Positions 9,754-26,057 of a stretch of 33,732 nt of DNA are shown in pieces. The notes under the pieces were generated by a model. It saw nothing but the letters and a program-made list of their open reading frames with translations. It was not told the origin of the DNA and did no database searches. The stretch comes from a virus: IMG/VR virus record IMGVR_UViG_3300046467_001001, positions 1-33,732 of that record. One strand, given 5' to 3'. The position numbers and the translations under genes are program-made. Numbering within the stretch: position 1 is the first letter of the stretch; each line of letters opens with the position of its first letter.

Positions 9754-11676
9754 ATGACAAAAGTTCGTCGTATCCAAAACTCGTTTGTCGCCGGGCAACT
9801 TGATCTCGGTATGCGAATGCGGTCTGATATTGGAGCGTATGCCAACGGCTTGGAAACATGCCTGAATTATCGCTTGCTTCTGCACGGCGGCGCTAAACGC
9901 CGACCCGGCACGAAATATAAATCTACGCTCAATAAGAAATCCCGCCTTGCTAAGTTCGTATTCTCTGAGAGCCAGCAATATGTCGTTGCTTTCCAAGCCG
10001 CGCGCATCGAGGTGTATGGCACGGACGGTCTTCTCGATCAGGCCATCACCTCAAGTGTGCCATATACAGAAGTACAGTTAGATGAAATTCGCTGGGCGCA
10101 AGCCGGTGATACCATGATTGTTGTGCATGAAGATCATCCGATTTGGCAGTTGAAGCGAACTGGCGCGACAACCTTCACCTGGACACTGTTTGCCTTTGAG
10201 CAAGCCACAGCCGGATTTCCCTTGCATCAGCCCTATAATAAATATGCTGCGGCGGGGAACACACTGACGCCATCGGGCACGACAGGATCAATAACCTGCA
10301 CCCTTTCTGCCGCTCATTTCACCACTAATTTTATTAATGAAATCATCCGGTATAAAGGCAAGGAAATATTGCTCACGGCGTTTACTTCAACCACCATTAT
10401 GACCGGGACTGTTAGAGATACACTTGTCGGTACTGATGCCGATGCAGATTGGGATGAACCTGCTTTTCATAGTGTCGTTGGATACCCAAGAACAGCGCGC
10501 TTTCATTTACAGAGGCTTATATTCGGCGGCGCCAAGACAATGCCTGATTCCATCTTTGGTTCAAAGATTGGGGCGTTTTTCAATTTTGATCTTGGAACCG
10601 GCCTTGCTGCCGAGGGCATTCAACAAACAATTGGTAGCGATCAGGTCAATACGATCATGCACATGGTTTCATCGCGCCATCTGCAAATATTCACCAACCA
10701 AGCAGAATATTTTATTCCGACAACTGAAGCCGTGCCGTTTACGCCAGCGAATGTTGCATTTCAAGAGCAGACCGATTTCGGCAGCCTCGATGTTCCGCCG
10801 CGCAAAATGGATGGTGTTACGCTATTCCCTGACAGAACAGGTAAGCATCTAAGGGAGTTTCTATTCTCAGATATCGAGCAAGCATATTCATCTGAATCCC
10901 TATCCAAGCTGGCTCCTGAAATATTCGGGACGCCAAAAGACTGTGATGTTCTGTCTGGCTCGACAAATCATCCAGAACAGTATCTCTATATCATCGATAC
11001 CGATGGCTTTATGGCGCAACTGAATACTATGCGATCCGAGAATATCTCTGGATGGTCGCAATGGAAAACTCGCACTGGAGATAAATTCATTTCCATTACC
11101 GAGGCAAACGACGATATCTTTTTGTGTGTGGAACGATCTATCAATTCGTCCACTGTCTATTACCTTGAGGTATTGGACTACACCAGCACCCTTGATTGCA
11201 ATATCACGCTCACATCCGCCGCTACAACGGCCTGGAGCGGCCTTACAGTGCTTGAGGGCGAAGCGGTGGACGTTTACGACAATACGGATATCACGCACGG
11301 TGGCGGCTATACTGTGGCCTCTGGAGCCATAACCACGACTAATAATCATACAGATATCGACGTTGGCTTTGATATCACAACTACGATCAAAGATTTACCC
11401 CCGCAAGTTCAATTGGCCTCCGGCTCAATTGCTGGCGAGATGAAGCGAATCGCGCGAATTAATGTGTCTGTCCTTGATTCGTACACTTGGACAATCGGGG
11501 ATGATATCGTTCAGTTGTATGAAACCACCGACGATCTCAGCGCTGCACCGATTGCCAAGAGCGGTATGTATGAGTTCTTCCAGCTAGGCTTTGGTAGGCT
11601 GCGTCAAACCACGATCACGCAAGATGCGCCACTTCCCCTGACAATCTTGGGGCTTGAGAAGGAGATTGTTTTTTAA
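9754..11676 (+). CDS. Tail tubular protein B / nozzle (T7 gp12-like)
   Basis: A 640-residue tail nozzle protein, the hexameric tip that gates DNA and carries the fibres. The N-terminus has the family signature: QNSFVAGQLDLGMRMRSDIGAYANGLETCLNY, then HGGAKRRPGTKYKS (residues about 8-57; quoted in parts FVAGQLDLG and GGAKRRPGT). Size is near T7 gp12 (794) but on the shorter side, as in many marine podoviruses. The body is predicted beta-rich, with many small repeats. It begins directly after the adaptor stop codon, and its stop overlaps the next start (TAATG). Confidence 0.87.
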   Translation: MTKVRRIQNSFVAGQLDLGMRMRSDIGAYANGLETCLNYRLLLHGGAKRRPGTKYKSTLNKKSRLAKFVFSESQQYVVAFQAARIEVYGTDGLLDQAITSSVPYTEVQLDEIRWAQAGDTMIVVHEDHPIWQLKRTGATTFTWTLFAFEQATAGFPLHQPYNKYAAAGNTLTPSGTTGSITCTLSAAHFTTNFINEIIRYKGKEILLTAFTSTTIMTGTVRDTLVGTDADADWDEPAFHSVVGYPRTARFHLQRLIFGGAKTMPDSIFGSKIGAFFNFDLGTGLAAEGIQQTIGSDQVNTIMHMVSSRHLQIFTNQAEYFIPTTEAVPFTPANVAFQEQTDFGSLDVPPRKMDGVTLFPDRTGKHLREFLFSDIEQAYSSESLSKLAPEIFGTPKDCDVLSGSTNHPEQYLYIIDTDGFMAQLNTMRSENISGWSQWKTRTGDKFISITEANDDIFLCVERSINSSTVYYLEVLDYTSTLDCNITLTSAATTAWSGLTVLEGEAVDVYDNTDITHGGGYTVASGAITTTNNHTDIDVGFDITTTIKDLPPQVQLASGSIAGEMKRIARINVSVLDSYTWTIGDDIVQLYETTDDLSAAPIAKSGMYEFFQLGFGRLRQTTITQDAPLPLTILGLEKEIVF

Positions 11677-12122
11677 TGGGTTATGTCACCATTGCCATAG
11701 CCGTTATTGGGCTCGTTATGCAGATGAAATCTGCTGGCGAGGCAAAGAAGGCTGCAAAGTTTGAGCGCGAGCAAGCCGAGCAACAGAAGCTCGCTATTAA
11801 GACTGAAGCTCTTAATCAGGAGACAAACCGGCGCCTGGATTTCTTTGCCGCCGACCAAGCCAATATGGCGCAGGATGCAGCGAACGGTGTGGCCATTCTC
11901 GGAGGGACGGCGGACGCAATGAAGCTGGGAAACAAGTTTGCTTTGGACCGTGATATTGCCACCCTTAGGGCAAACGCGGCTTCTGGTATTCGCACTGCTG
12001 GCCTTAGATCATCTGCCATTGGTGCACGGGCACGCAGCGCACAATTCGCGGCCGTCGGCCAAGGACTTTCGAATGCGGCCTCGATTTATAAAAAGTCCCA
12101 AACCCAAAAGACAATAGAATGA
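11676..12122 (+). CDS. Internal virion protein, gp14-like
   Basis: A 148-residue Ala-rich protein: an N-terminal hydrophobic segment (VTIAIAVIGLVMQM, residues 4-17), then a long helical, Ala/Gln/Lys-rich body suited to coiled coils (KKAAKFEREQAEQQ at about 25-38; DAANGVAILGGTADAMKLG mid-protein). This is the size, composition and position of T7 gp14-type ejection proteins, which insert into the outer membrane at infection. The start overlaps the nozzle stop, and its stop overlaps the next start (ATGA). Homology is by pattern and order only. Confidence 0.7.
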   Translation: MGYVTIAIAVIGLVMQMKSAGEAKKAAKFEREQAEQQKLAIKTEALNQETNRRLDFFAADQANMAQDAANGVAILGGTADAMKLGNKFALDRDIATLRANAASGIRTAGLRSSAIGARARSAQFAAVGQGLSNAASIYKKSQTQKTIE

Positions 12123-15100
12123 GAAAAGAATTTAAGTCAAAGATCAGCCTGAATATTCAGCCGATTGTTCCGGCTGGTGATCACGGCGAGGGTTCATCGG
12201 CATTTGGCACTCAATTGACTAATTTCGCCGAGGGACTGCAAGCCGATAAAGCGATAGAGCTAAAGAGAGAAGGTGAGAGGGCTGGGGCTAAAGCCGGGAT
12301 TGACCCTAATTTTAAGCCTCGCGACGATGAGAGCCAAGTTTTTAATGCCGCTTTCAATGCAGCCGGTGAAACGGCGTATATTGCACAATTAAAAATTGAT
12401 TCGTTTGCTGCTATGAGCCAAATTGAAAGGGATAACGCGCAAGACCCTATAAAATACCAAGCCGCTTCAGACGCCTATATTGCCTCAACCGTTGGGGCAA
12501 TTGATCCGCGATTAAAAACCCAGGCCGAGCAAATGCTACGGAGCCGTCAGGCGGCATCCGGTGTCCGTGTCGCTGATATGCGATTCTCTATCATTAAGCA
12601 ACAGCAACACATAGCTGTTTCAGCCGCGATCACGATGGATGAGACAGAGCATTTTGACAGAGTTCGAGAAACAGGCGTTGTCGATCAAGGCGCAAAAACC
12701 GCCATATCCGAACAGGTGGTTAGCGCCCTGGCGTCGGGTATCTACGGTTCTGCGGATTCCGCAGCTTTTACCAAGCAGCACCAATATCGTGAGCATTTAT
12801 CCCTGGCCTATTACGAGATGGAAAAAATCACCTCAACTGAGGATTCCTCCGGCTCGAAATCGAATCAATTTCTTCAGGACGTTGCTGCTGGCGAGACAAA
12901 TCTCACTGAGGGTTTAAGTACTCAGCAGCGGATCAACCTAGTTTCCGCTATGAGGACAATGCGGGATTCGCTCAACTACGCAAAAGATACTGAAGCGAAT
13001 GAGGCGGCTATCTGGCAGACGAAGGCGCAAGTGCTGCGGAAAGCCCAGATTAGCCTTTCGACTGAACAGGCAAAGCCCATGCTAATTCAATCTATTGCTG
13101 ATGGTAATTTGGCTACTGTTCTGAACTTTCAGAAAGAACATGGTGCTTCAATAGATATAGATATTGCCAGCGGCGCGCTTACTGGCTCCCAAGGCCTATC
13201 CGAGAAAGAAGCTCTCCAAAGTTTTCTGAATACTCAGCTTGCCTTGCATCAAGACGTAACGCTTGCGCGTGAGTATATTGATGCAAATATAACACTCAAT
13301 CGGCCCATCCCGTTTACTAAGGACGGTATAGGGGCGACTGAAACGGTGGCGTCTGATAATCTTAATCGCGGAGAATGGGAGCTTTATAAGCGTACTGATG
13401 ATGGTGCATACGATGAAGAGGCTATGCTGAAAATGCAGCTTTATATCGCATCGACCGGCCATCTTTCTCAAGAATTTACAGGTCGGATTAAAACGACTCA
13501 ATTAATGGGACCAGAATTAGCATATTGGGCTCAGTTCTATGCTCCGATTTTATCCAATGAGTATACCGGCGATACCATATTGGCTCAACTTCCGAATGAG
13601 ACACGGGGGCTTATTGTAACGATTGCTCAGATGCACCGAGACGGACAAGCGACCCCTGAAAAATTAGAGTTGATGCTTAAAGATAGAATGGGGCGCACTC
13701 TTGAAAATCATCAAATAGAAGTTCTTGCTAGTTATGGCAGGGTTGTTGGCCCGGGTGATACTGTTGATAGCGCATGGCGCGATCTTGCTAGTGAAACTGG
13801 TATAATTGATGATTTTGTTCAAGCCGGAAAGCCGACTTGGTTCGAGAATGTTACGAATAAAAATATCCGGTATACACGCGGCACCTTCGGAATTATTGGC
13901 GCTGCGGTTAATTCGATAAAGCATTTAATTCAAGCTGGCGACGATATGGAATGGTTTGATCCTAAAATCCCGCCTGAGTTTCAAGAGACTATTCTAAATT
14001 ATTTCACTCAGTCCTCGATGATGTACGACACCGATAAGAAGTCGCAAGAAAACGCAATGGCTGATGCGATGACTTCGGCTCTGCAAAATACCAATTGGGG
14101 AGTGACTACTTTCGGCGGCAAGCTCGCTTTTGTTAAAGCGCCCGTTTCCAAATGGGAGCATAACGATTTTGTGGTTCTTCCTGAAGGCTGGGATCATGCC
14201 AAAGAGCTTATGGTTGAAATGGCTGTTTATGACGCCATTGTCGAGGCAGGTCTGATTGATAGCGCGATGATTGCCGATAACGACGGCAATGCGGGCAATG
14301 TCGTAAATACGTGGGATGGCGAAAGCATTAACTATCAGGAGATGCTTGAAGATGGCCGTGTGAATTTGGTGGTAATAGGCGATCCCGTTGTCGGAGTTAT
14401 TCCGAGCTATCATATTGTAATTCAGAAAAAAACCGGCCAGCAAAAAATACTTCAGGTTAGAGAGCGGAGCGAAGACGGGACAACGGGGCCAGATTCCCAG
14501 TTGATACCGTTGGTATTCACATATCCGCAATCCGGCGGAGATGGCCAAAGCGAAATCGGGAGCGAATACCGTACTCTTGCGATAGAAGCGGCGGCAGAGG
14601 CCAAGGCATTCGTTTCAAGAATTATGGGGCCGAATGATTTTGTTGAAGAGATGGTTTTCAATGAATATTTCTACGAGAAAATTAGGGTCAACCGTGAAGG
14701 CATGGCCCCAAAGCGTAGATATACAGGGTTAAGCGGCATACTGAAAAAAGATTCTGATACAATGATTATGAATGCAAAGCATCTGGCTGGCAGTTCTCTC
14801 CCGGCAAATGATGCCATCAACGAAGGCAGCGAGAATATCCCGCTCGCTATTGATGATAATGCTATCTCGGTAGAAATGCCTAAGTCCTCTAATGATGTTG
14901 TGCCGGGTCAGGTGAATTTTGATCCAAATTCATCAGAGGTTTCAGAGGCGCAAATACCCTCGATTGAGGCTGCGGCGGCTGATTTAAAGGCTAACCCAGA
15001 ACAGAAAATCAGAATTGAGGCGTTTTCTTTCAGTGGAGACAGTCTTTCTGACAATCGCAAGCAATCATTGAGCCGGGCGATGGCTATTCGTCAGCGTCTT

Positions 15101-15253
15101 GTGAAAATGGGCATTGATCCCTCAAGAATTGAAATCAATTCTCGCGGTAAGCAGGCCCGCCCCGGCAAAGGCATAAATGAAGAAAAGCGCCGGAATAAGA
15201 TGCGCTCCCAGACTTTTAGCAATGGTGTTGATTTAATTATGGTAAATGAATAA
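12119..15253 (+). CDS. Large internal virion protein with C-terminal OmpA-like domain
   Basis: A 1044-residue protein between gp14-like and gp16-like genes, in the slot of T7 gp15, which with its neighbours forms the channel that ejects DNA across the periplasm. The first ~900 residues are mostly helical without a familiar motif. Residues about 932-1044 form an OmpA/Pal-like peptidoglycan-binding fold: VNFDPNSSEVSEAQ, IEAAAADLKANPEQKIRIEAF, DNRKQSLSRAMAIRQRLVKMG (quoted by parts), IDPSRIEINSRG and a closing VDLIMV strand. The conserved Arg of the N-x(6)-RA motif is present, but the usual Asp of GxTD is not. It overlaps both neighbours. Confidence 0.75.
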   Translation: MRKEFKSKISLNIQPIVPAGDHGEGSSAFGTQLTNFAEGLQADKAIELKREGERAGAKAGIDPNFKPRDDESQVFNAAFNAAGETAYIAQLKIDSFAAMSQIERDNAQDPIKYQAASDAYIASTVGAIDPRLKTQAEQMLRSRQAASGVRVADMRFSIIKQQQHIAVSAAITMDETEHFDRVRETGVVDQGAKTAISEQVVSALASGIYGSADSAAFTKQHQYREHLSLAYYEMEKITSTEDSSGSKSNQFLQDVAAGETNLTEGLSTQQRINLVSAMRTMRDSLNYAKDTEANEAAIWQTKAQVLRKAQISLSTEQAKPMLIQSIADGNLATVLNFQKEHGASIDIDIASGALTGSQGLSEKEALQSFLNTQLALHQDVTLAREYIDANITLNRPIPFTKDGIGATETVASDNLNRGEWELYKRTDDGAYDEEAMLKMQLYIASTGHLSQEFTGRIKTTQLMGPELAYWAQFYAPILSNEYTGDTILAQLPNETRGLIVTIAQMHRDGQATPEKLELMLKDRMGRTLENHQIEVLASYGRVVGPGDTVDSAWRDLASETGIIDDFVQAGKPTWFENVTNKNIRYTRGTFGIIGAAVNSIKHLIQAGDDMEWFDPKIPPEFQETILNYFTQSSMMYDTDKKSQENAMADAMTSALQNTNWGVTTFGGKLAFVKAPVSKWEHNDFVVLPEGWDHAKELMVEMAVYDAIVEAGLIDSAMIADNDGNAGNVVNTWDGESINYQEMLEDGRVNLVVIGDPVVGVIPSYHIVIQKKTGQQKILQVRERSEDGTTGPDSQLIPLVFTYPQSGGDGQSEIGSEYRTLAIEAAAEAKAFVSRIMGPNDFVEEMVFNEYFYEKIRVNREGMAPKRRYTGLSGILKKDSDTMIMNAKHLAGSSLPANDAINEGSENIPLAIDDNAISVEMPKSSNDVVPGQVNFDPNSSEVSEAQIPSIEAAAADLKANPEQKIRIEAFSFSGDSLSDNRKQSLSRAMAIRQRLVKMGIDPSRIEINSRGKQARPGKGINEEKRRNKMRSQTFSNGVDLIMVNE
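14912..15250 (+). other. OmpA-like peptidoglycan-binding domain (residues ~932-1044)
   Basis: The domain order is beta strand (VNFDP), helix, strand (KIRIEAF), helix starting SLSRAMAIRQRL, strand (SRIEINSRG), final strand (VDLIMV). The SLSRAxAxRxxLxxxGI-xxxRI pattern is what I recall from a subgroup of OmpA-family proteins of Alphaproteobacteria, ending in a VDLVV-like strand. It ends the virion protein, so it could grip the murein sacculus during ejection. An AFSFSGDS segment replaces the canonical GHTD ligand loop, so binding strength is uncertain. Confidence 0.65.
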
Positions 15254-18200
15254 TGCCATCTCATCAGCCCATTCCCATTGATATTGATCCGGCAAAGCCT
15301 ATTATTGGTGAGCCGCAAGATATCAATCCCGGTGAATCTTTTGTACCGCAAGACGCCGCAGCTCTGCCGATCAATCGCCGGAATGATTATAACTTTGAGC
15401 CGCCAGCCGGGCTTGATAGGGGCCAGTTTCAACCTGCTAGGCCGATTATCAATATTCGTGACCCTGACTTCTCCCCGTGGGAAGCCTTTACGGAAGCATT
15501 CAAGCGGAATAATATCTTTGCGGCTGACGCTGCTAATGATGCATTTCGTAGATCGCTTGATTATGCCGAATCTAATCAAAACGGCGCGCCTATAGACCCG
15601 TTTGAAATCAGCGAATTTGCGACTAGATATCCGCTTCAGTATTCCGGGCTGACAACTCGGACGGGTGTTTGGCTCACTGACCAGCGGATTAAAGAAGGCC
15701 TTTACGCTCAACAGAAGATTCGTTCAAATGGTTGGACCGGAACGATTGGCGCCTTTGCTGGCGCTGTCACTGACCCGTTTCAAATCTTCTTTCCGTTCGC
15801 TGGACTGCGAAGGGGCGTCGGGTTCATCAAGGGTTTCAAGCGAACCGCTTCTCCGGTATTCACCGCAACAATTGTCGATGAGATGCTTATCAGTGAGGCT
15901 TATCCAACTAGGACAATGGATGAGAGCGCTATGATCGTGGCGATGGCAACTGGAATTACCGGCCTGTTGGGCGGTACTGTTGGCAGCTTTGGTCGTAGCT
16001 ATTCAGATCGGGTCATTTCACGGTACATGGATGATATTGCTGATTATGAAAAGGCGGCAACAGGGCGATTGGGTGAAAGTCCTGAGCCGCGTGGTGGGCC
16101 GACATTTAAAAGTGCTGGCTCTGGCGCTACTAATGAAGGCTTGGCTGCAAAGACGCCCACAGAAGAACTTCATGGCGAAGGTCTGGTCCGGGCAGCGGGG
16201 TTGGAAAAGTTGCCAGAGTCGCCGTATAAGCGAAATCTTCAATCGATGTTTCTTTCGGTCAGAGAGTTCACGGTTGGATTGATCGAATCTCCGGGGCTGT
16301 TCCAGAATAAGAATTTTAAGCTGGAAGCAACTGAGCTTTCGGTAGAGACAAAAATCCGTCCTTGGCAATATGAGATGGTCGAGGCGCTGAATAACATGAC
16401 GCACCAATGGGGGCTGTCACGCGGAACGACACTTGGTAAAACCGGCACAAAGCAAACCATTGGCCTCGCAAAGATGGCCGTCAAAGACAAGCTCGGCAAT
16501 CGGCCTGTCGGAACATTATCTCATACAGAGTTCCGTGAAGAGGTGTCTCATGCTCTACGCAGCAATGAGCCTCACTCAAACCCCTATGTTGAGGCGTCTG
16601 CTGTTAAAATCCGCAAGCTGTTTGATAAGCTAAAAGATCAGGCCGTCGAAGCTGATTTATTTACTGCGGCGCAGCGGTCAAAGTTAAAGCAAGGGACCAG
16701 TGAAGCTGCTGAGATGAAGGTCCGACAGGATCAAAATGATGCCGATATCTTGGAGCTTCAAGCCAGTCTGAAAAGCAAGCGCATTGATATCACGAAGAAG
16801 CACGGCAAAAAGGCAGAACATAATTCAGAGAAATGGGTGGCATACGATAAAGAAGCCGCTCGCCTGAAAACTATGGTTTCTCGTAGCTTCGACTCCAAGA
16901 AGCAATTGAGTTCCAAGAATAAAACCTTGCGCGCCCTTGAGGAAGAGATTGATCGCATCCGCGAAGAAGGGCCGACCGTCTTTAATGATAAGGGTTATGT
17001 CCCGCGTATTTGGCGGATCGATAAGATTGACGCGAATATGGCAGAGTTTCGTCAAATCATTGGCGGCTATTTGACTAAGCGTGGAGTTGCTAAAGGCGAC
17101 TTGGAATTGTCGATTACTGAAATGCTAGAGCGGATTCGCCGCGACCATAATTTCAATCAAATCAAAGAGTTTGATCCTGGCATTGCGCGGTCTGCGCGCG
17201 AGCGGTTGATTGAAATTGACGACAGCCTTCTCACCAAATTCATTGAGAATGACATTGATATAATCATGCGGCACCATGTTCGCACATTCTCGACCGACCT
17301 TGAGCTAGTAAAGCGTTTCGGTACTATCGATCTATTCGATCAAATAAAGTTGATCAAAGAGGAGGGGGCTGAAGCTATTGTTAAGGCCGCTCCTTCTGAG
17401 CAAGCTGCTCTTCGCAAGCAACTGTCGAACAATCTTCGAGACTTCATTGCTCTACGTGACAGGCTGCGCGGCACCTATGGTCTGCCAGATGATCCTTACC
17501 GGCCCCTCTCGCGCTTCTATCGAGTCATGAAACAATGGAATTATCTTACCTTTCTCGGCGGCGTTGTTCTTTCGGCCCTGCCTGATCTGGCTCGTCCAAT
17601 TATGACTGAGGGGTTTATGCAAACCATGCGGCCCACCTTTGCCGCATTAAGCCAGGGTAGATATATTCGGCAGATGGCTGCGAAAGAGGTTCACCGATCT
17701 GGTACTGCACTGGATATGATTTTGAATACTCGAGCTATGGCAATCGCAGATACCGGAGATATATTTGGGCGGCAAACTGGTCTTGAACGAGCTCTCCATC
17801 GTGGGGCTGAAGCCTTCTCGATGATTAATCTTCTTAATCCATGGAATACCGCCGTCAAAGAATGGGCCGGAACCGTGATTGCTGCGCGTATTTTTGAAAG
17901 TGCGGACCTGTTTTCAAAGTATTCTGGCCCGGCAAAAGGCGCAAACCATGATTTTGTTAAGCTAGCGCGCTCTGGCATCGATAAGCCAATGGCGGAACGC
18001 TTAATGAAGCAGTTTTATGAGCATGGCGATATCGCCCACCGGGACGGATCGTTGATGCGGGATACCCTTGAAGGGCTCACTGGCAAGGAACTAAGGGCCG
18101 GGATCGATAAGCACATAGCCAAATCCAGAAGAGAGGGAGGCGTCTTTCTTCCCAATACTGATTTATGGGCAGACCTTGAGGCGACGGCCTCATTTCGGGG

Positions 18201-18798
18201 TGCGCTTTCCCAGGATGTTGACCGGGCTATTGTTACCCCTGGTGCAGCAGATAGACCTCTCTGGATGAGTACCGAGCTTGGAAGTGTTATCGGCCAGTTC
18301 AAGGGATTCGGGGTCAGCTCTGCTCAACGGGTTCTCACATCGGCTCTTCAGGAGAAACAAGCCTACAATATCCACGGCCTTGCTATGATGGTAGGCATGG
18401 GAATGATTGTTAATCAGCTAAAGCACTCGCTATCAGGATATAATTTTGGAGAAGAAGGTCTGGCAAAGTCAATTCTAGGTGGAATTGATCGATCAGGTGT
18501 CCTTGGCATTTACAGCGATCTTGACAATGCAATCGGTGCTTTGAGCGATGGCGCTATAGGAATGAGTGCATCCGTTAGTGATCAGCCCGTCAATGAACGG
18601 GGCTTAGTAAGTGCGGTGTTTGGTCCTACGGCTTCAAAACTTCTTGATATACGAACGGTAGTGTCCGATGTTGGTAATGGCCGTTTCGACACAGGAACCT
18701 CCGGTGCGCTTCGTCGGTTTATTCCATTACAAAACCATTTTGCTCTTAGTCACGGTTTTGCGGAAATGCAGAAGTCAGCCCCACCGGCCACACAATAG
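15253..18798 (+). CDS. Largest internal virion / DNA ejection protein (gp16-like)
   Basis: An 1181-residue protein at the end of the ejection-protein series; in T7 the equivalent gp16 forms the trans-envelope conduit. Visible parts: a Pro-rich start; hydrophobic stretches around residues 155-185 (GTIGAFAGAVTDPFQIFFPF) and 228-248 (MIVAMATGITGLLGGTVG); a charged helical/coiled-coil zone around 480-570; another hydrophobic segment near 767 (TFLGGVVLSALPDLARP); and a C-terminal region with FKGFGVSSAQRVLTSAL and NQLKHSLSGYNFG. I see no lytic transglycosylase or polymerase motifs. The TAATG overlap with the previous gene indicates coupling. Confidence 0.75.
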   Translation: MPSHQPIPIDIDPAKPIIGEPQDINPGESFVPQDAAALPINRRNDYNFEPPAGLDRGQFQPARPIINIRDPDFSPWEAFTEAFKRNNIFAADAANDAFRRSLDYAESNQNGAPIDPFEISEFATRYPLQYSGLTTRTGVWLTDQRIKEGLYAQQKIRSNGWTGTIGAFAGAVTDPFQIFFPFAGLRRGVGFIKGFKRTASPVFTATIVDEMLISEAYPTRTMDESAMIVAMATGITGLLGGTVGSFGRSYSDRVISRYMDDIADYEKAATGRLGESPEPRGGPTFKSAGSGATNEGLAAKTPTEELHGEGLVRAAGLEKLPESPYKRNLQSMFLSVREFTVGLIESPGLFQNKNFKLEATELSVETKIRPWQYEMVEALNNMTHQWGLSRGTTLGKTGTKQTIGLAKMAVKDKLGNRPVGTLSHTEFREEVSHALRSNEPHSNPYVEASAVKIRKLFDKLKDQAVEADLFTAAQRSKLKQGTSEAAEMKVRQDQNDADILELQASLKSKRIDITKKHGKKAEHNSEKWVAYDKEAARLKTMVSRSFDSKKQLSSKNKTLRALEEEIDRIREEGPTVFNDKGYVPRIWRIDKIDANMAEFRQIIGGYLTKRGVAKGDLELSITEMLERIRRDHNFNQIKEFDPGIARSARERLIEIDDSLLTKFIENDIDIIMRHHVRTFSTDLELVKRFGTIDLFDQIKLIKEEGAEAIVKAAPSEQAALRKQLSNNLRDFIALRDRLRGTYGLPDDPYRPLSRFYRVMKQWNYLTFLGGVVLSALPDLARPIMTEGFMQTMRPTFAALSQGRYIRQMAAKEVHRSGTALDMILNTRAMAIADTGDIFGRQTGLERALHRGAEAFSMINLLNPWNTAVKEWAGTVIAARIFESADLFSKYSGPAKGANHDFVKLARSGIDKPMAERLMKQFYEHGDIAHRDGSLMRDTLEGLTGKELRAGIDKHIAKSRREGGVFLPNTDLWADLEATASFRGALSQDVDRAIVTPGAADRPLWMSTELGSVIGQFKGFGVSSAQRVLTSALQEKQAYNIHGLAMMVGMGMIVNQLKHSLSGYNFGEEGLAKSILGGIDRSGVLGIYSDLDNAIGALSDGAIGMSASVSDQPVNERGLVSAVFGPTASKLLDIRTVVSDVGNGRFDTGTSGALRRFIPLQNHFALSHGFAEMQKSAPPATQ

Positions 18799-18806
18799 GA
18801 TAAATT

Positions 18807-20618
18807 ATGGCAATAACAATCACTGACACAACGCCCCGAGTGATCGATGTTATCGGCGGGACGCCTCAAACTGCCATTACGGTTGGTTTCGAGTGGTTCG
18901 CTGATGCAGACCTCAAGGTCTACAAGGACGGCGTTCTTCAAACCCTGACCACGCATTACACGGCAACAGGTGCCGGTGTATCGGGTGGCGGCACTGTAGA
19001 TTTTGTCGTTGCCGTTTCCAATGTCACAATCACCGTCATTCGAGATATGGCGATTGAGCGCACTACAGATTTTCCCATTTCAGGGTCGTTTAAAATCGAC
19101 GCGCTGAATACCGCCCTTGATAAAATCGTCGCTATGATGCTCCAAGTGGAGCGAGATGTGGAAGTTCTGTCGTTGACGGCTGATCCGTTCGATACAGTAA
19201 ATGATTTTACAATACCAATTAAGGCAACAAGGGCCTTAAAAGTATTTGGCTTTGATGCCAATGGTGACCCGGAAACTACTCTACCTACAGCAAATCTCAC
19301 AACACTTGGGACAATTACATCTGATATCACGACCGTCGCCGGCATATCCGCAAATGTGACGACGGTTGCGGGAATAGCCGCAAATGTTACCGCCGTCGCT
19401 GCCGACGCAACTGACATTGGCGCGGTTGCGGCCAAGGCTACCGAGATTGGCCGACTTGGCACGTCGGATGCCGTCGCCGATATGAATACCTTGGGCACGG
19501 CTGCAATCGTGACCGACATGGACCTCCTAGCCAGTAGTGCAAACGTGACCGCCATGGGGTTGCTGGGCACCGCTGATGCCGTGAGCGATATGAATACCTT
19601 GGCCACGGCTGCAATCGTGACCGATATGGATTTGTTAGCCACCAGTGCAAATGTAACTGCGATGGGGGTGCTGGGCACCGCTGATGTCGTAACTGACATG
19701 AACGTCCTAGCTACCTCCGATGTTGTAGCGGACATGAACACTCTTGGTACTGCCGCTATTGTCACAGACATGGATTTGTTGGCTACAACTGCAAATGTGA
19801 CCGCGATGGGCCTACTTGGCGTAGCTAGTGTTATTACCGATATGGGCATTTTGGGTACTGCCGACGTAGTAACGGACATGAATGTGCTCGGCACCGCCGA
19901 TGTCGTAACTGATATGAACACCCTCGGCACGGCAGATGTCGTAACTGATATGAACACCCTGGCCACCGGTGCCAACGTGACCGCGATGGCGACCGTAGCA
20001 ACCAACATCGCTGGCGTTAACTCGTTTGCTGAACGCTATCGCGTAGCATCGAGCGATCCTGTAAGTAGCCTCGATGAGGGCGATTTACACTACAACACAA
20101 CAGCCAACGTGCTGCGATTTTATAACGGGTCGAGTTGGGCGGATACGGTTGCCACTTCACAAGTGACCTCTGTAGCCGTTACCGGAGCCGATGGCGTGAG
20201 CATTTTATCTGGCTCACCCATCACAACCAGTGGAACGATTGCACTCAGCGGCACTGGCCTCACGCCGCGCACAAGCGCGACTGGTAGTGCGAATGTACCA
20301 GCAGGCACAACTGCACAACGCGACGGCTCCGCCGCCGTAGGGATGTTTAGGTACAACAGCACCACCAATGAGTTTGAGGGCTACTCCGGTGCAAGCCCAG
20401 CCTGGGGATCAATCGGCGGCGGCGCCGGATATTTCTTAGGCAACACAGCCGCAACCGGCGATACGACTGCCGGTCTTGAAGACATCTTCCGCGTTAACAG
20501 CGCGACTTGCGACAACTCCTGTGAAATCGCCAGCGGCACGAACGCCAGCGCCACGGGGCCGCTTACGGTTTCGAGCGGGGTCACGGTGACCGTGACCGGC
20601 GTATTGGCAGTGATATGA
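18807..20618 (+). CDS. Tail fibre protein, T7 gp17-like N-terminus
   Basis: A 603-residue fibre that attaches to the tail via its N-terminus and meets the host with its tip. Residues 1-125 match the T7-type tail-attachment domain (VGFEWFADADLKVYKDGV, HYTATGAGVSGGG, IERTTDFPISGSFKIDALN). A shaft of short repeats follows: TTVAG-type at about 170-210, then fifteen 12-residue units at 217-396. The C-terminal third has VLRFYNGSSWADTV and a short beta-rich tip; no chaperone (intramolecular) domain is recognised. The ribosome-binding site is weak (AGGATAAATT). Fibre exchange by repeat recombination is plausible. Confidence 0.85.
   Translation: MAITITDTTPRVIDVIGGTPQTAITVGFEWFADADLKVYKDGVLQTLTTHYTATGAGVSGGGTVDFVVAVSNVTITVIRDMAIERTTDFPISGSFKIDALNTALDKIVAMMLQVERDVEVLSLTADPFDTVNDFTIPIKATRALKVFGFDANGDPETTLPTANLTTLGTITSDITTVAGISANVTTVAGIAANVTAVAADATDIGAVAAKATEIGRLGTSDAVADMNTLGTAAIVTDMDLLASSANVTAMGLLGTADAVSDMNTLATAAIVTDMDLLATSANVTAMGVLGTADVVTDMNVLATSDVVADMNTLGTAAIVTDMDLLATTANVTAMGLLGVASVITDMGILGTADVVTDMNVLGTADVVTDMNTLGTADVVTDMNTLATGANVTAMATVATNIAGVNSFAERYRVASSDPVSSLDEGDLHYNTTANVLRFYNGSSWADTVATSQVTSVAVTGADGVSILSGSPITTSGTIALSGTGLTPRTSATGSANVPAGTTAQRDGSAAVGMFRYNSTTNEFEGYSGASPAWGSIGGGAGYFLGNTAATGDTTAGLEDIFRVNSATCDNSCEIASGTNASATGPLTVSSGVTVTVTGVLAVI
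19455..19994 (+). repeat. Fifteen tandem 36-base repeats in the fibre shaft
   Basis: Fifteen units of 12 residues, consensus LGTADVVTDMNT, with three flavours: LGTADxVxDMNT, LGTAAIVTDMDL and LATSANVTAMGL. They occur as a higher-order triplet of 36 residues at least three times (first units, units 4-6, units 8-10), followed by near-identical copies at 19854-19962 that share a long stretch at DNA level. This is strong evidence for recent expansion by unequal recombination. A regular fibre shaft is likely; whether coiled coil or beta structure cannot be told by eye. Confidence 0.85.
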
Positions 20619-20628
20619 GGAATAAACA

Positions 20629-21456
20629 ATGAGTACACTTAAAGCCGACGCAATATCATCGGCCAGTTCAAATACGGACTGTGTCATAACTGGCGCAGGA
20701 TCAGGTGTCCCTGACATCGAGGCCTCGTTCAAAGTTGGCGGGGTTGCAGGAGTACCCACGGCGTCCATTAGAGACGATGCCGTAACTTTAGCCAAACTAG
20801 CAACTGGGACCGATGGCGAACTTATAACTTGGGATGCAAGTGGCGACCCTGCGGCAGTTGCCGTTGGGACCGCTACTCATGTACTTACGTCAAACGGGAC
20901 TGGGGCTGCTCCGACATTTCAGGCTGCAGCGGGAGGTGGTGCGTGGACTTTAATTGGAACAGTAGCAGCTTCAACTAGTGCGACCTTAACGGTTACTGGA
21001 ATAGATACTACTTACGGTATTTATGCTATCGGTTTGAGTGCAATCATTCCTACTGCGGATAATTATCAATTAGGTTTACGAGTTGGCGACTCTGGTGGAA
21101 TAGATTCTGGGGCGACCGATTATGAATTTCATACCTGTCTAAATGAACCCGATAGTGCGACTTATCAAGCCACTGCTAGTACAGGAAGTAATTGGATTAT
21201 GTTACATGACGGCATAGGTAATGCTTCAGGAGAAAGTGGTGGAGGAATGTTTTATCTGACGAATGGGGGTGATACTTTATTGCCCCAAATCTCTGGTATA
21301 ATGCAGGGTACGGCTTCTCCCGGAATTTTTAGAGCGGGTACTGTTCTTGGGCAAAGAAAGGCTTCTATTGCAGTAACACAAGTGCAAATCCTTTTCCAAG
21401 CTGGTGCTAACATACTTTCTGGTCGATTAACCGTATGGGGAATTGCACATGCCTAG
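20629..21456 (+). CDS. Receptor-binding / fibre-tip protein, cassette 1
   Basis: A 275-residue protein. The N-terminal part (STLKADAISSASSN, then GAGSGVPDIEASFKVGGVAGVP, then VLTSNGTGAAPTFQAAAGGG near residues 85-104) resembles tail-fibre linker segments common in phages. The C-terminal ~170 residues are a beta-rich tip ending LSGRLTVWGIAHA. It shares the N-terminal module SGVPxxEAxFKVGGVAGVP with cassette 2, and the general plan with cassette 3. It is directly followed by a tail-assembly chaperone whose start overlaps it. The tip half looks more A/T-rich than its neighbours, consistent with exchange (impression, not measured). Receptor specificity is unknown. Confidence 0.7.
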   Translation: MSTLKADAISSASSNTDCVITGAGSGVPDIEASFKVGGVAGVPTASIRDDAVTLAKLATGTDGELITWDASGDPAAVAVGTATHVLTSNGTGAAPTFQAAAGGGAWTLIGTVAASTSATLTVTGIDTTYGIYAIGLSAIIPTADNYQLGLRVGDSGGIDSGATDYEFHTCLNEPDSATYQATASTGSNWIMLHDGIGNASGESGGGMFYLTNGGDTLLPQISGIMQGTASPGIFRAGTVLGQRKASIAVTQVQILFQAGANILSGRLTVWGIAHA

Positions 21457-21748
21457 ACATCACACAATCTGGGATGCGGCCCAACAAAAACAGATAGACG
21501 TACCGTTCTCACCGGCAGAGGAGGATCAGAAAGACGCCGAGGAGCAAGCCTGGGCAAACGGTGCAAATGATAGGGCTTTCGTCGAACTAAGAAAAGAACG
21601 CAACAGTCTTTTGGCGGCTACCGATTGGTGGGCGTCGAGTGATCTAAGTATCACTGACGCTCAGACTGCCTATCGCGCAGCCCTCCGCGACCTCCCGGCG
21701 AACACCGCCGATCCGACGAACCCCACATGGCCAGAGGAGCCTAGCTGA
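21449..21748 (+). CDS. Tail fibre assembly chaperone, cassette 1
   Basis: Ninety-nine residues from the ATG at 21449 (a TTG at 21443 is also in frame). The C-terminal pattern LRKERNSLLAATDWWASSDL...TAYRAALRDLPA...PTWPEEPS is that of the phage tail-assembly-chaperone family (tail fibre assembly-like), which helps fibres fold and attach. The start overlaps the end of the receptor-binding protein, and the stop overlaps the next receptor-binding gene (TGATG), so it is made in step with both. Two more copies follow in this window. Confidence 0.75.
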   Translation: MPRHHTIWDAAQQKQIDVPFSPAEEDQKDAEEQAWANGANDRAFVELRKERNSLLAATDWWASSDLSITDAQTAYRAALRDLPANTADPTNPTWPEEPS

Positions 21749-22935
21749 TGACCTCAACTTTGAAGGCTGACGTTCTTACCAGCAAAACGACCAACGGCGA
21801 TTTGACGATCTCCGGTGATGGGTCCGGTGTTCCTAATTTGGAAGCTGGCTTTAAAGTTGGTGGGGTTGCTGGCGTCCCTGGCGCATCGATACGCAATGAC
21901 GCTATCGACAGCCAACACTACGCGGCTGCCAGCATCGACTTAGAGCATATGTCGTCTGAAAGCGTGGATGAGGACAATATTCATATTTCCAATGCTGGCA
22001 GCAACGGTGAATTTCTAAGCAAGCAATCTGGTGCTGCTGGTGGCTTAACCTGGGCGGCGGCTGGTGGCGGTGGGTTCACCGTGGGAACGGAGCAAGCTAC
22101 TGCGTCAGGAACCAGCTTTACATTTACTGGAATACCGTCCGGCACGACGATGGTGATCCTAACATTTGCCTCGATAAGCATGACTTCGACCGACGCATTT
22201 GACGTTACCATTGGCGATAGCGGTGGCTTGGAAACGTCTTCTTATAATGCCAATAGTATTCACATTGATAACAATACAGCGGCGGGCGTCGGAAACGCAT
22301 CAGCGTTTTTAATGAAGAACCACCACGCTTTGCGAAAGTACTCAGGTTCGATGATCCTCATGCTTGAAGATGCGACAAACCACACTTGGGTATGCTCTTC
22401 AGTTTTTGGCGGGTCTGATGGTGCGGGTGATTCGGCTGGAATCTCGGGTGGCTCAAAAACGCTGAGCGATGAACTTACACAAATATCTCTCAGTGGCGGC
22501 ACCTTTGACGCTGGCGCGTGCAACATAATGTATCAATGAGAAGGGCTGTAGAATGAAAAACTTCATAGCAATCGTGCGTTCTACGGATGGTGTTCTGGAC
22601 AAGTTTCAAGACTTTGACACTCAAGCAGAAGCTGACACTCATATCGCTCAATATGGTGGCTGGGTGGCTCCCAACCCCGGAGGCAACAACAAGAATTTTT
22701 GGGTGATTAACGAACAAGCCAAAACACTGGCGTATGACCAAGCGAGCCAAGATGCTGGCGCGGTTGCGCGGCAATGGGCCGAGGTGCGAGCCAAGAGAAA
22801 TCAATTGCTCGCTGAGTCGGACTGGCGTGCGATGTCTGATCTCACGATGAGTGACGCCTGGAAGACCTACCGCCAAGCACTGAGAGATGTCGGGGGACAA
22901 GCCGATCCCAGCAATATCACATGGCCAGAGGAGCC
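21724..22935 (+). repeat. 18-base identical repeat ending cassettes 1 and 2
   Basis: CACATGGCCAGAGGAGCC occurs at 21724-21741 and at 22918-22935, in the same position near the chaperone 3' ends (encoding the WPEEP motif). Together with the roughly similar chaperone C-termini, these stretches give recombination targets that would delete or add a whole receptor-binding cassette in frame. Confidence 0.65.
21748..22539 (+). CDS. Receptor-binding / fibre-tip protein, cassette 2
   Basis: A 263-residue paralogue of the cassette 1 protein. It has the same opening module (TSTLKADVLTSKTTNGDL, SGVPNLEAGFKVGGVAGVP) and a different tip of about 150 residues with a VTIGDSGGLETSSY motif, also seen as VGDSGGIDSGATDY in cassette 1. 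The shared GDSGG pattern shows both tips belong to one structural family despite low identity. It ends with a Cys-containing strand (GACNIMYQ). Its own chaperone follows 13 bases later. Target receptor unknown. Confidence 0.7.
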   Translation: MTSTLKADVLTSKTTNGDLTISGDGSGVPNLEAGFKVGGVAGVPGASIRNDAIDSQHYAAASIDLEHMSSESVDEDNIHISNAGSNGEFLSKQSGAAGGLTWAAAGGGGFTVGTEQATASGTSFTFTGIPSGTTMVILTFASISMTSTDAFDVTIGDSGGLETSSYNANSIHIDNNTAAGVGNASAFLMKNHHALRKYSGSMILMLEDATNHTWVCSSVFGGSDGAGDSAGISGGSKTLSDELTQISLSGGTFDAGACNIMYQ

Positions 22936-22942
22936 AAGTTAA
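22553..22942 (+). CDS. Tail fibre assembly chaperone, cassette 2
   Basis: One hundred and twenty-nine residues. Residues 1-55 form an extra N-terminal part (FIAIVRSTDGVLDKFQDFDT...NNKNFWVI) not present in the cassette 1 or 3 chaperones. The C-terminus has the family pattern RAKRNQLLAESDWRAMSDLTMSD, TYRQALRDVGGQADPSNITWPEEPS (in parts). The last ~50 residues are almost identical to the cassette 3 chaperone. The stop is immediately followed by the next receptor-binding ATG. It probably folds or loads the preceding tip protein. Confidence 0.75.
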   Translation: MKNFIAIVRSTDGVLDKFQDFDTQAEADTHIAQYGGWVAPNPGGNNKNFWVINEQAKTLAYDQASQDAGAVARQWAEVRAKRNQLLAESDWRAMSDLTMSDAWKTYRQALRDVGGQADPSNITWPEEPS

Positions 22943-23713
22943 ATGAGTACCATCGAATCTGATGCCGTCACAGCGGCAACCGGCACCAACACGGCACTTA
23001 GCCTCCGAGGCAAGGGAACCGGTAAGGTTGCGCTGGGCGATGCCGCGCTACTAGTGCCCGATGCAGATGGGGCGGCGGGGCAGATACTTACCACTAACGG
23101 GAGTTTAGCGCTGACCTTTGCAGCAACGCCCGGCAGTTCGGGGAACGTTTTGACCTCGAACGGATCGGCGTGGACAAGTGCGGCGGCGGCTGGCGGTGCT
23201 TGGGCGGTTAAAAGCTCTGGTTCTCATTCGGGCACCAGTCTGGAAATTACCGGGTTGGCTAAGACAACGAAAATAATCCTGACAAAGTATTACCAAAACG
23301 GCACAGACGGTCTTAAAGGGGCTTTTAGCTCGAATAACGGCAGTTCATGGGATAACGGTACAAACGCCTATATGGAAGATAAGTTATCTTGGTACAACCA
23401 GGACACGAATTACAACTACTCTATGGGGCGTACAGAAATCTCCCTTATGGGGTACATATTCCCCGGTGAGCTAACCGTAAATGACCGGGGGTATATGGAG
23501 CTGAACATACTTGAACCTCAAGCATCAGAATACACTTTAATTGATAATTACTTTGTAGGTGCCTCAGTTGGAACCCCCGGCGACAATGGAACTGGTGAGA
23601 TAGGGATGGTGCATTGTATCGCGCACCACCTTACAGGGGCAGCACAAAATGGTTTTAGAATATCCGCTAGCACAACATTCACTTGTGATTACACTGTATT
23701 GGAGTTGAACTAA
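22943..23713 (+). CDS. Receptor-binding / fibre-tip protein, cassette 3
   Basis: A 256-residue fibre-tip protein. The N-terminal module (LSLRGKGTGKVALGDAALLVPDADGAAGQILTTNGS..., by parts GKGTGKVALGD and GQILTTNGS) is typical of phage tail-fibre shafts and differs from that of cassettes 1 and 2. It also has a VLTSNGSAWTSAAAAGGA linker like cassette 1. The C-terminal ~170 residues are beta-rich with many aromatic residues (SWYNQDTNYNYS), as expected of a binding tip. Its stop overlaps the chaperone start (TAATG). It is the most divergent of the three tips. Confidence 0.7.
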   Translation: MSTIESDAVTAATGTNTALSLRGKGTGKVALGDAALLVPDADGAAGQILTTNGSLALTFAATPGSSGNVLTSNGSAWTSAAAAGGAWAVKSSGSHSGTSLEITGLAKTTKIILTKYYQNGTDGLKGAFSSNNGSSWDNGTNAYMEDKLSWYNQDTNYNYSMGRTEISLMGYIFPGELTVNDRGYMELNILEPQASEYTLIDNYFVGASVGTPGDNGTGEIGMVHCIAHHLTGAAQNGFRISASTTFTCDYTVLELN

Positions 23714-24000
23714 TGAAAACAGTAGTGAACCTCCGTGACAAGACAAGTATCCAGCAAGCACTCTCTGACGCAGAAACGGCAGAGTTAGAAACTGTTCAAG
23801 CGGCATGGGCCGCTGGCGCAACTGACCGGGCGTGGGTAACGGTGCGCGCCAAGCGAAATCAATTACTCGCCGATTCCGATTGGCATGGCATGTCAGATTT
23901 GACGATGAGTGACGGCTGGACGACCTACCGCCAAGCGCTCAGAGATGTGGGCGGTCAGGCCGATCCCTCAAATATCACTTGGCCCGACGCACCGGCATGA
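23713..24000 (+). CDS. Tail fibre assembly chaperone, cassette 3
   Basis: Ninety-five residues. After a short divergent start (KTVVNLRDKTSIQQAL), the family core VRAKRNQLLADSDWHGMSDLTMSDGWTTYRQALRDVGGQADPSNITWPD (by parts) is nearly the same as in cassette 2; the DNA also remains similar there. This conservation next to divergent tips indicates gene duplication with tip replacement. The gene ends the fibre module; a 109-base gap follows. Confidence 0.75.
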   Translation: MKTVVNLRDKTSIQQALSDAETAELETVQAAWAAGATDRAWVTVRAKRNQLLADSDWHGMSDLTMSDGWTTYRQALRDVGGQADPSNITWPDAPA

Positions 24001-25673: not shown

Positions 25674-26057
25674 GTGAGTGGAATGCGTTATGCAAAGTGG
25701 TCTGAAGTTCCGCCTCGCGTGTGGCCTTGCAAGTTTTTCAAACCGCATGAAATTGCGTGTAAGGGGACCGGCTCCATTCTCATTCACGCAGAGGCGCTGC
25801 TGGCGCTGGACGAGCTAAGGATGAACCTTGGGACGCCTATCTATTTGTCATCTTCCTATCGCTCCCCTTACCATAATTCATGTGTGGGTGGCGCGCCAAA
25901 ATCGAGTCATTTAGAGGGCCATGCGCACGATGTCCAATTGAGGGGCATGGACAAAACCAAGCTGCGAGCCGAGGCAGAGCGCGTCGGTTTCAAGGGGTTC
26001 GGGATGCGGTACAGGACATTTATGCACATCGATATGGGCAGAAAGCGAGAGTGGTGA
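25674..26057 (+). CDS. M15-family peptidase endolysin
   Basis: A 127-residue zinc peptidase that probably cleaves cell-wall peptides at lysis. The M15_3-type signature is complete: FFKPHEIACKGTG (21-33), then a helix, then SSYRSPYHN (60-68), SSHLEGHAHDV with His79 and Asp86, and FMHID with His118 as the third zinc ligand. Length fits single-domain phage M15 endolysins, and no signal peptide is present, so a holin is needed. The start is GTG at 25674 directly after the previous stop; an ATG at 25683 is equally possible. The holin gene follows three bases later. Confidence 0.88.
   Translation: MSGMRYAKWSEVPPRVWPCKFFKPHEIACKGTGSILIHAEALLALDELRMNLGTPIYLSSSYRSPYHNSCVGGAPKSSHLEGHAHDVQLRGMDKTKLRAEAERVGFKGFGMRYRTFMHIDMGRKREW

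Follow-up and report, generated by a model that had tools for sequence, protein, structure and literature searches.

The C-terminus of a putative ejection protein encoded in the viral genome analysed here is, as judged from sequence and predicted structure, a genuine OmpA-like domain, and by comparison with related phages this "OmpA tip" is a private C-terminal addition of one phage (n=1). The window, i.e., the whole stretch of DNA that was analysed, is a 33.7 kb IMG/VR virus record (33,732 nucleotides), the gene content of which reads as a podovirus structural module. It includes genes for a small terminase (phrog_2538), a large terminase (phrog_2), a head-tail connector (PF12236, E=1.4e-82), a T7-type scaffold (PF05396), the major capsid protein (phrog_3437) and tail tubes (phrog_394, phrog_376), and an early gene block running leftward encodes SSB, Rad52, RusA, a helix-turn-helix protein and a protein with a DnaA C-terminal domain. 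Downstream of the tail tubes, the genes follow the T7-like order gp14, gp15, gp16 and then tail fibre:

11676..12122, + strand: gp14-slot small ejection protein, weak match to internal virion protein phrog_418 (E=0.0017)
12119..15253, + strand: gp15-slot protein of 1044 aa, putative periplasmic tunnel protein, continuous open reading frame
15253..18798, + strand: gp16-slot large ejection protein of 1181 aa, phrog_342 (E=2.4e-56)
25674..26057, + strand: M15 peptidase, probable endolysin of the lysis cassette (Peptidase_M15_3, E=1.1e-20), 89% identical in the related phage L099

The tail fibre (18807-20618) contains many near-identical TADVVTDMN / ANVTAMG repeat units with a weak LED_rpt match. 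It is followed at 20629-24000 by a repeated, fibre-plus-chaperone-like cassette, pieces of which are shuffled in L099:

20629-21456, 21748-22539 and 22943-23713: three fibre-like paralogues, alternating with Phage_tail_APC genes
21443-21748, 22553-22942 and 23713-24000: three small Phage_tail_APC genes (PF16778)

The product of 12119-15253 is probably a podovirus gp15-type ejection protein, an assignment based on gene order and remote homology, and we infer its presence in the virion. The gene is placed between the gp14-like and gp16-like genes, and homologues of the gp14-slot gene sit at the equivalent place in L099, L100 and L102. Residues 395-519 align with the gp15-slot proteins of relatives (hhalign probability 93.8, E=1.7e-7, 113 columns), a WGVT-G motif further along is collinear with these proteins, and the N-terminus is homologous to gp15 of L012, L099 and L102. 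AlphaFold predicts a helical body (residues 25-560), a mixed alpha/beta region (575-800) and further helices (812-890); the entire protein of 1044 aa is devoid of cysteines. Like T7 gp15, it is a large helical protein with an expected periplasmic role, encoded by a gene flanked by gp14 and gp16. T7 gp15 is shorter (747 aa), and no sequence or fold match between the two proteins is detected: the gp15 profile had no significant match when searched against PDB sequences, and T7 gp15 is absent among the listed fold matches of the full-length model (mean pLDDT 62.6). Single-sequence searches of phage records and IMG/VR with the whole protein found no relatives.

The feature that sets the protein apart from T7 gp15 is its C-terminal domain, the elements of which are as follows:

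14789..14905, + strand: flexible linker, residues about 891-929, without secondary structure and with pLDDT below 50
14918..15187, + strand: OmpA-like domain, residues 934-1023 (Pfam PF00691, AlphaFold, Foldseek), the fold running to about residue 1041
15020..15031, + strand: AFSF, residues 968-971, replacing G-H/Y-T-D (ungapped alignment to Pal 4g4v; host OmpA domains)
15074..15076, + strand: Arg986, kept in alignments and equivalent to the ligand-binding Arg286 of A. baumannii OmpA

The domain matches Pfam-A OmpA (PF00691) with E=1.3e-12 and 48.3 bits, as compared to a curated cut-off of 27.2, and the last 113 residues alone reach E=3.8e-14. Every PDB chain retrieved with the sequence is of the OmpA/Pal type, the best being the Pal structure 4g4v (E=3.4e-6). 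An AlphaFold model of residues 916-1044 shows the order beta-alpha-beta-alpha-beta-alpha-beta with a core pLDDT of about 75-91, and Foldseek matches it to OprF, Pal and OmpA C-domains with a probability of 1.00, E-values of about 1e-7 and TM-scores of up to 0.70-0.82; this model is not independent of the sequence matches, since OmpA homologues formed its alignment. The full-length model was built on an alignment of gp15-slot proteins only, with zero OmpA rows, and Pal/OmpA are still its top Foldseek matches (probability 1.00), at an E-value of only 0.26. E-value and fold together rule out a chance or weak motif match. An earlier note, made from the letters of this DNA, had put the protein in the gp15 slot and recognised in residues 932-1044 the OmpA-like order of elements, the SLSRAMAIRQRL motif and an altered GxTD loop. 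The flanking genes, PF00691, the alignment to Pal and the AlphaFold and Foldseek results bear out these points, the SLSRAMAIRQRL motif being present in the domain, and only the bounds require adjustment, to a folded core of about 931-1041. A contig chimera was considered and rejected: the reading frame is continuous, neither GC nor GC3 differs between the domain and the remainder of the gene, and the gene's stop shares bases with the start of gp16 (TAATG at 15251-15255).

The tip shares with Pal, the OmpA C-domain and OprF the PF00691 fold, the RxA motif and the Arg of the ligand pair, yet it is fused to a phage ejection protein, whereas the cellular domains are carried by a lipoprotein or a barrel. 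A second difference concerns the ligand pocket. In OmpA-type domains an Asp and an Arg together bind diaminopimelate (PMC12108004; PMC6572160); for A. baumannii OmpA, the D271A and R286A changes reportedly reveal both residues as critical for diaminopimelate association (PMC6572160). The tip retains only the Arg of the Asp271/Arg286 pair: the GHTD of Pal reads AFSF, such that Phe971 occupies the position of the ligand Asp, and the usual NRR motif has lost its Asn as well. Canonical diaminopimelate binding is therefore doubtful.

In the mechanism that we propose, a T7/P22-type podovirus would use the OmpA-like tip of its gp15-slot ejection protein to hold the DNA tunnel to the cell wall, a reading whose chances we put at about even. 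The protein would be packed in the head, threaded through the tail and refolded in the periplasm as a component of the DNA tunnel. There, the tip, a type of domain native to the periplasm, would fold at the end of its roughly 40-residue flexible linker and act as a grapple, fixing the tunnel to the wall during DNA entry, with one copy per tunnel subunit and presumably several per tunnel. It might recognise some part of the wall other than diaminopimelate, or it might grip via Arg986 alone. In favour of such an anchor are the OmpA fold, the gp14-gp15-gp16 order, the linker together with independent folding, and the lack of cysteines; the main argument against wall binding is the missing ligand Asp, and relatives without the tip evidently manage.

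T7 gp15 refolds in the periplasm, its C-terminal half is mobile, being stabilised late by gp16, and in one model this half is splayed towards the wall (PMC8954989). The earlier note had contrasted the phage with T7, "which cuts the wall". Indeed, a search of the window for a transglycosylase, which that note had advised, yielded none, and the M15 peptidase is the only wall-cutting enzyme recognised. The contrast itself holds less well, as the T7 gp16 transglycosylase is required only when the wall is highly cross-linked, P22-like phages do without it, and a swap of the hydrolase to gp15 is known (PMC8954989). The window's gp16-slot protein matches phrog_342, an "internal virion protein with endolysin domain", best over its residues 66-932 (profile 216-1009), a match that omits the N-terminal 215 positions of the profile; no transglycosylase domain is seen in this protein. 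No Pfam hydrolase was found in the gp15-slot and gp16-slot proteins, a search by which distant enzymes could be missed.

Possible clues to the target come from the cellular relatives of the tip. Among about 35 host OmpA domains collected by similarity, the nearest are 28-36% identical to the tip, and Arg986 and the fold-defining residues are kept. The Asp is missing from only four other full-length domains, all members of a single subfamily characterised by R-R-[LI]-SLSRA. In a tree, the tip branches with these four (support 97/98; 97/97 for a reduced set), although long branches meet at this node, and profile scores are equivocal (58 bits for the Asp-less group, 50-66 for random canonical sets). 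Since the Asp-less subfamily groups with the tip, the altered loop was perhaps inherited rather than invented by the phage. As a separate observation, a gene named by eye as MotA/TolQ/ExbB-like adjoins three of the four Asp-less domains, and the subfamily is found near such genes across several bacterial genomes (L115, L117, L129).

It is thus possible, albeit unlikely, that the tip binds a protein of the host envelope, for example the partner of the Asp-less subfamily, and thereby directs the tunnel towards the inner membrane or the proton motive force. The tree position agrees with such a role, as do the R[RK]xSLSRA motif and the near-equal loop length that the tip shares with the Asp-less domains (L115, L117, L129 and also L121), and the proton-channel type of the adjoining genes; against it count the long branches and the overlapping profile scores. 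The tip is only 28-32% identical to the subfamily. Equally tentative is a combined proposal, in which the ejectosome would be moored by non-catalytic OmpA-like domains derived from the Asp-less subfamily, the target being a MotA/TolQ-type partner or an element of the wall distinct from diaminopimelate.

The phylogenetic distribution of the tip was assessed in about 55 gp15-slot proteins of relatives, found with gp16 and capsid as hooks (45 in the main set), and none of them carries an OmpA tip. The closest phages have capsids 85-91% identical to that of the window (90% in L099, L101 and L142, 85% in L102) or, in the case of L012, a gp16 that is about 51% identical. Their gp15-slot proteins share the N-terminus with the window, end without the tip, contain no recognisable wall-cutting enzyme and are 22-25% identical or give no blast match. 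A clade trait is ruled out, given that L012, L099/L101/L142 and L102/L146 lack the tip, and it is the absence from about 55 relatives, including these closest phages, that marks the tip as private. The gp15 gene is the most divergent of the module, and its divergence, far above that of its neighbours capsid (85-91%) and gp16 (about 50%), suggests rapid change or replacement.

These two findings would also fit a tip that has no role in ejection, i.e., one that functions in assembly of the head or was acquired recently as a near-neutral addition. We regard this as improbable: the retention of Arg986 and the fold at only 28-36% identity suggests that the domain has been kept for a long time, and this, together with the absence of a stop codon and a base composition equal to that of the gene, disfavours recent neutral capture. 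That the product is an adhesion or tail protein which binds the wall and sits in the gp15 slot by chance is very improbable, since the exact gene order, the overlap with the gp16 start, the collinear remote homology to relatives' gp15-slot proteins and the N-terminal homology to gp15 of L012, L099 and L102 outweigh the undetected homology to T7 gp15, by sequence or fold, and a virion location that is itself deduced.

Wall anchoring by the gp15-slot protein gains plausibility from the wider family, in which wall-cutting enzymes are often encoded in the gp15-slot gene, at residues about 226-370. They comprise SLT (Escherichia phage TL-2011b), GH108 (ctHz2215, L021), glucosaminidase (L019), Phage_lysozyme2 (L022) and Phage_lysozyme (L038) domains; VanY is likewise among the wall-active domains tallied, and the "endolysin" PHROG is matched by 27 of 46 gp15-slot proteins. 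The presence of such domains suggests that the product of this gene meets peptidoglycan, and wall binding would most simply account for the fold and for the history of the gene. The gp15-like proteins of K1E and K1-5 and gp37 of TL-2011b (F365_gp37, "endolysin") likewise carry a wall-active domain in the gp15 slot (PMC8954989), but theirs is a cutting enzyme (within 263-342 in TL-2011b), whereas the window has a non-catalytic, binding-type domain at the extreme C-terminus. An in-place swap of a cutting for a binding domain is ruled out by these different positions, and because close relatives have neither hydrolase nor tip, a missing cutter alone does not explain the tip.

Two features of relatives lie outside this comparison. 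The gp16-slot protein of a distant relative (L155:10805-13492) resembles polyvalent proteins, with weak ART-PolyVal (458-532) and SLT transglycosylase (631-677) matches, and L012 encodes downstream of its tail fibre a trypsin-like serine protease with a signal-peptide-like start (L012:10193-11029), a counterpart of which was not seen in the window.

Other phages also encode OmpA domains. Maribacter phage Molly (gp018) and Cellulophaga phage phi17:2 do so in separate proteins of about 330-340 aa that are not fused to an ejection protein, the Molly gene lying near a tail fibre gene. The tip alone retrieved no phage from IMG/VR and weak matches only from phage records, and a search for prophages across 398 genomes of a single phylum, with gp16 as the query, turned up two distant matches. 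Neither the open-access papers nor the collections searched yielded a precedent for a pairing of OmpA with an ejection or internal virion protein, which does not prove absence elsewhere.

The finding bears on how the ejectosome of a podovirus locates and crosses the cell wall and remains anchored in it. Wall-cutting domains are already known to swap between ejection proteins, and the OmpA tip, as identified from its sequence, adds to this mosaicism a domain of a new type. If true, a gp15-slot gene that encodes a purely binding domain would represent a solution different from wall cutting, and residues 926-1044 would constitute a small, soluble module on which this can be tested. The gp15 gene would then be a general acceptor site for envelope-active domains.
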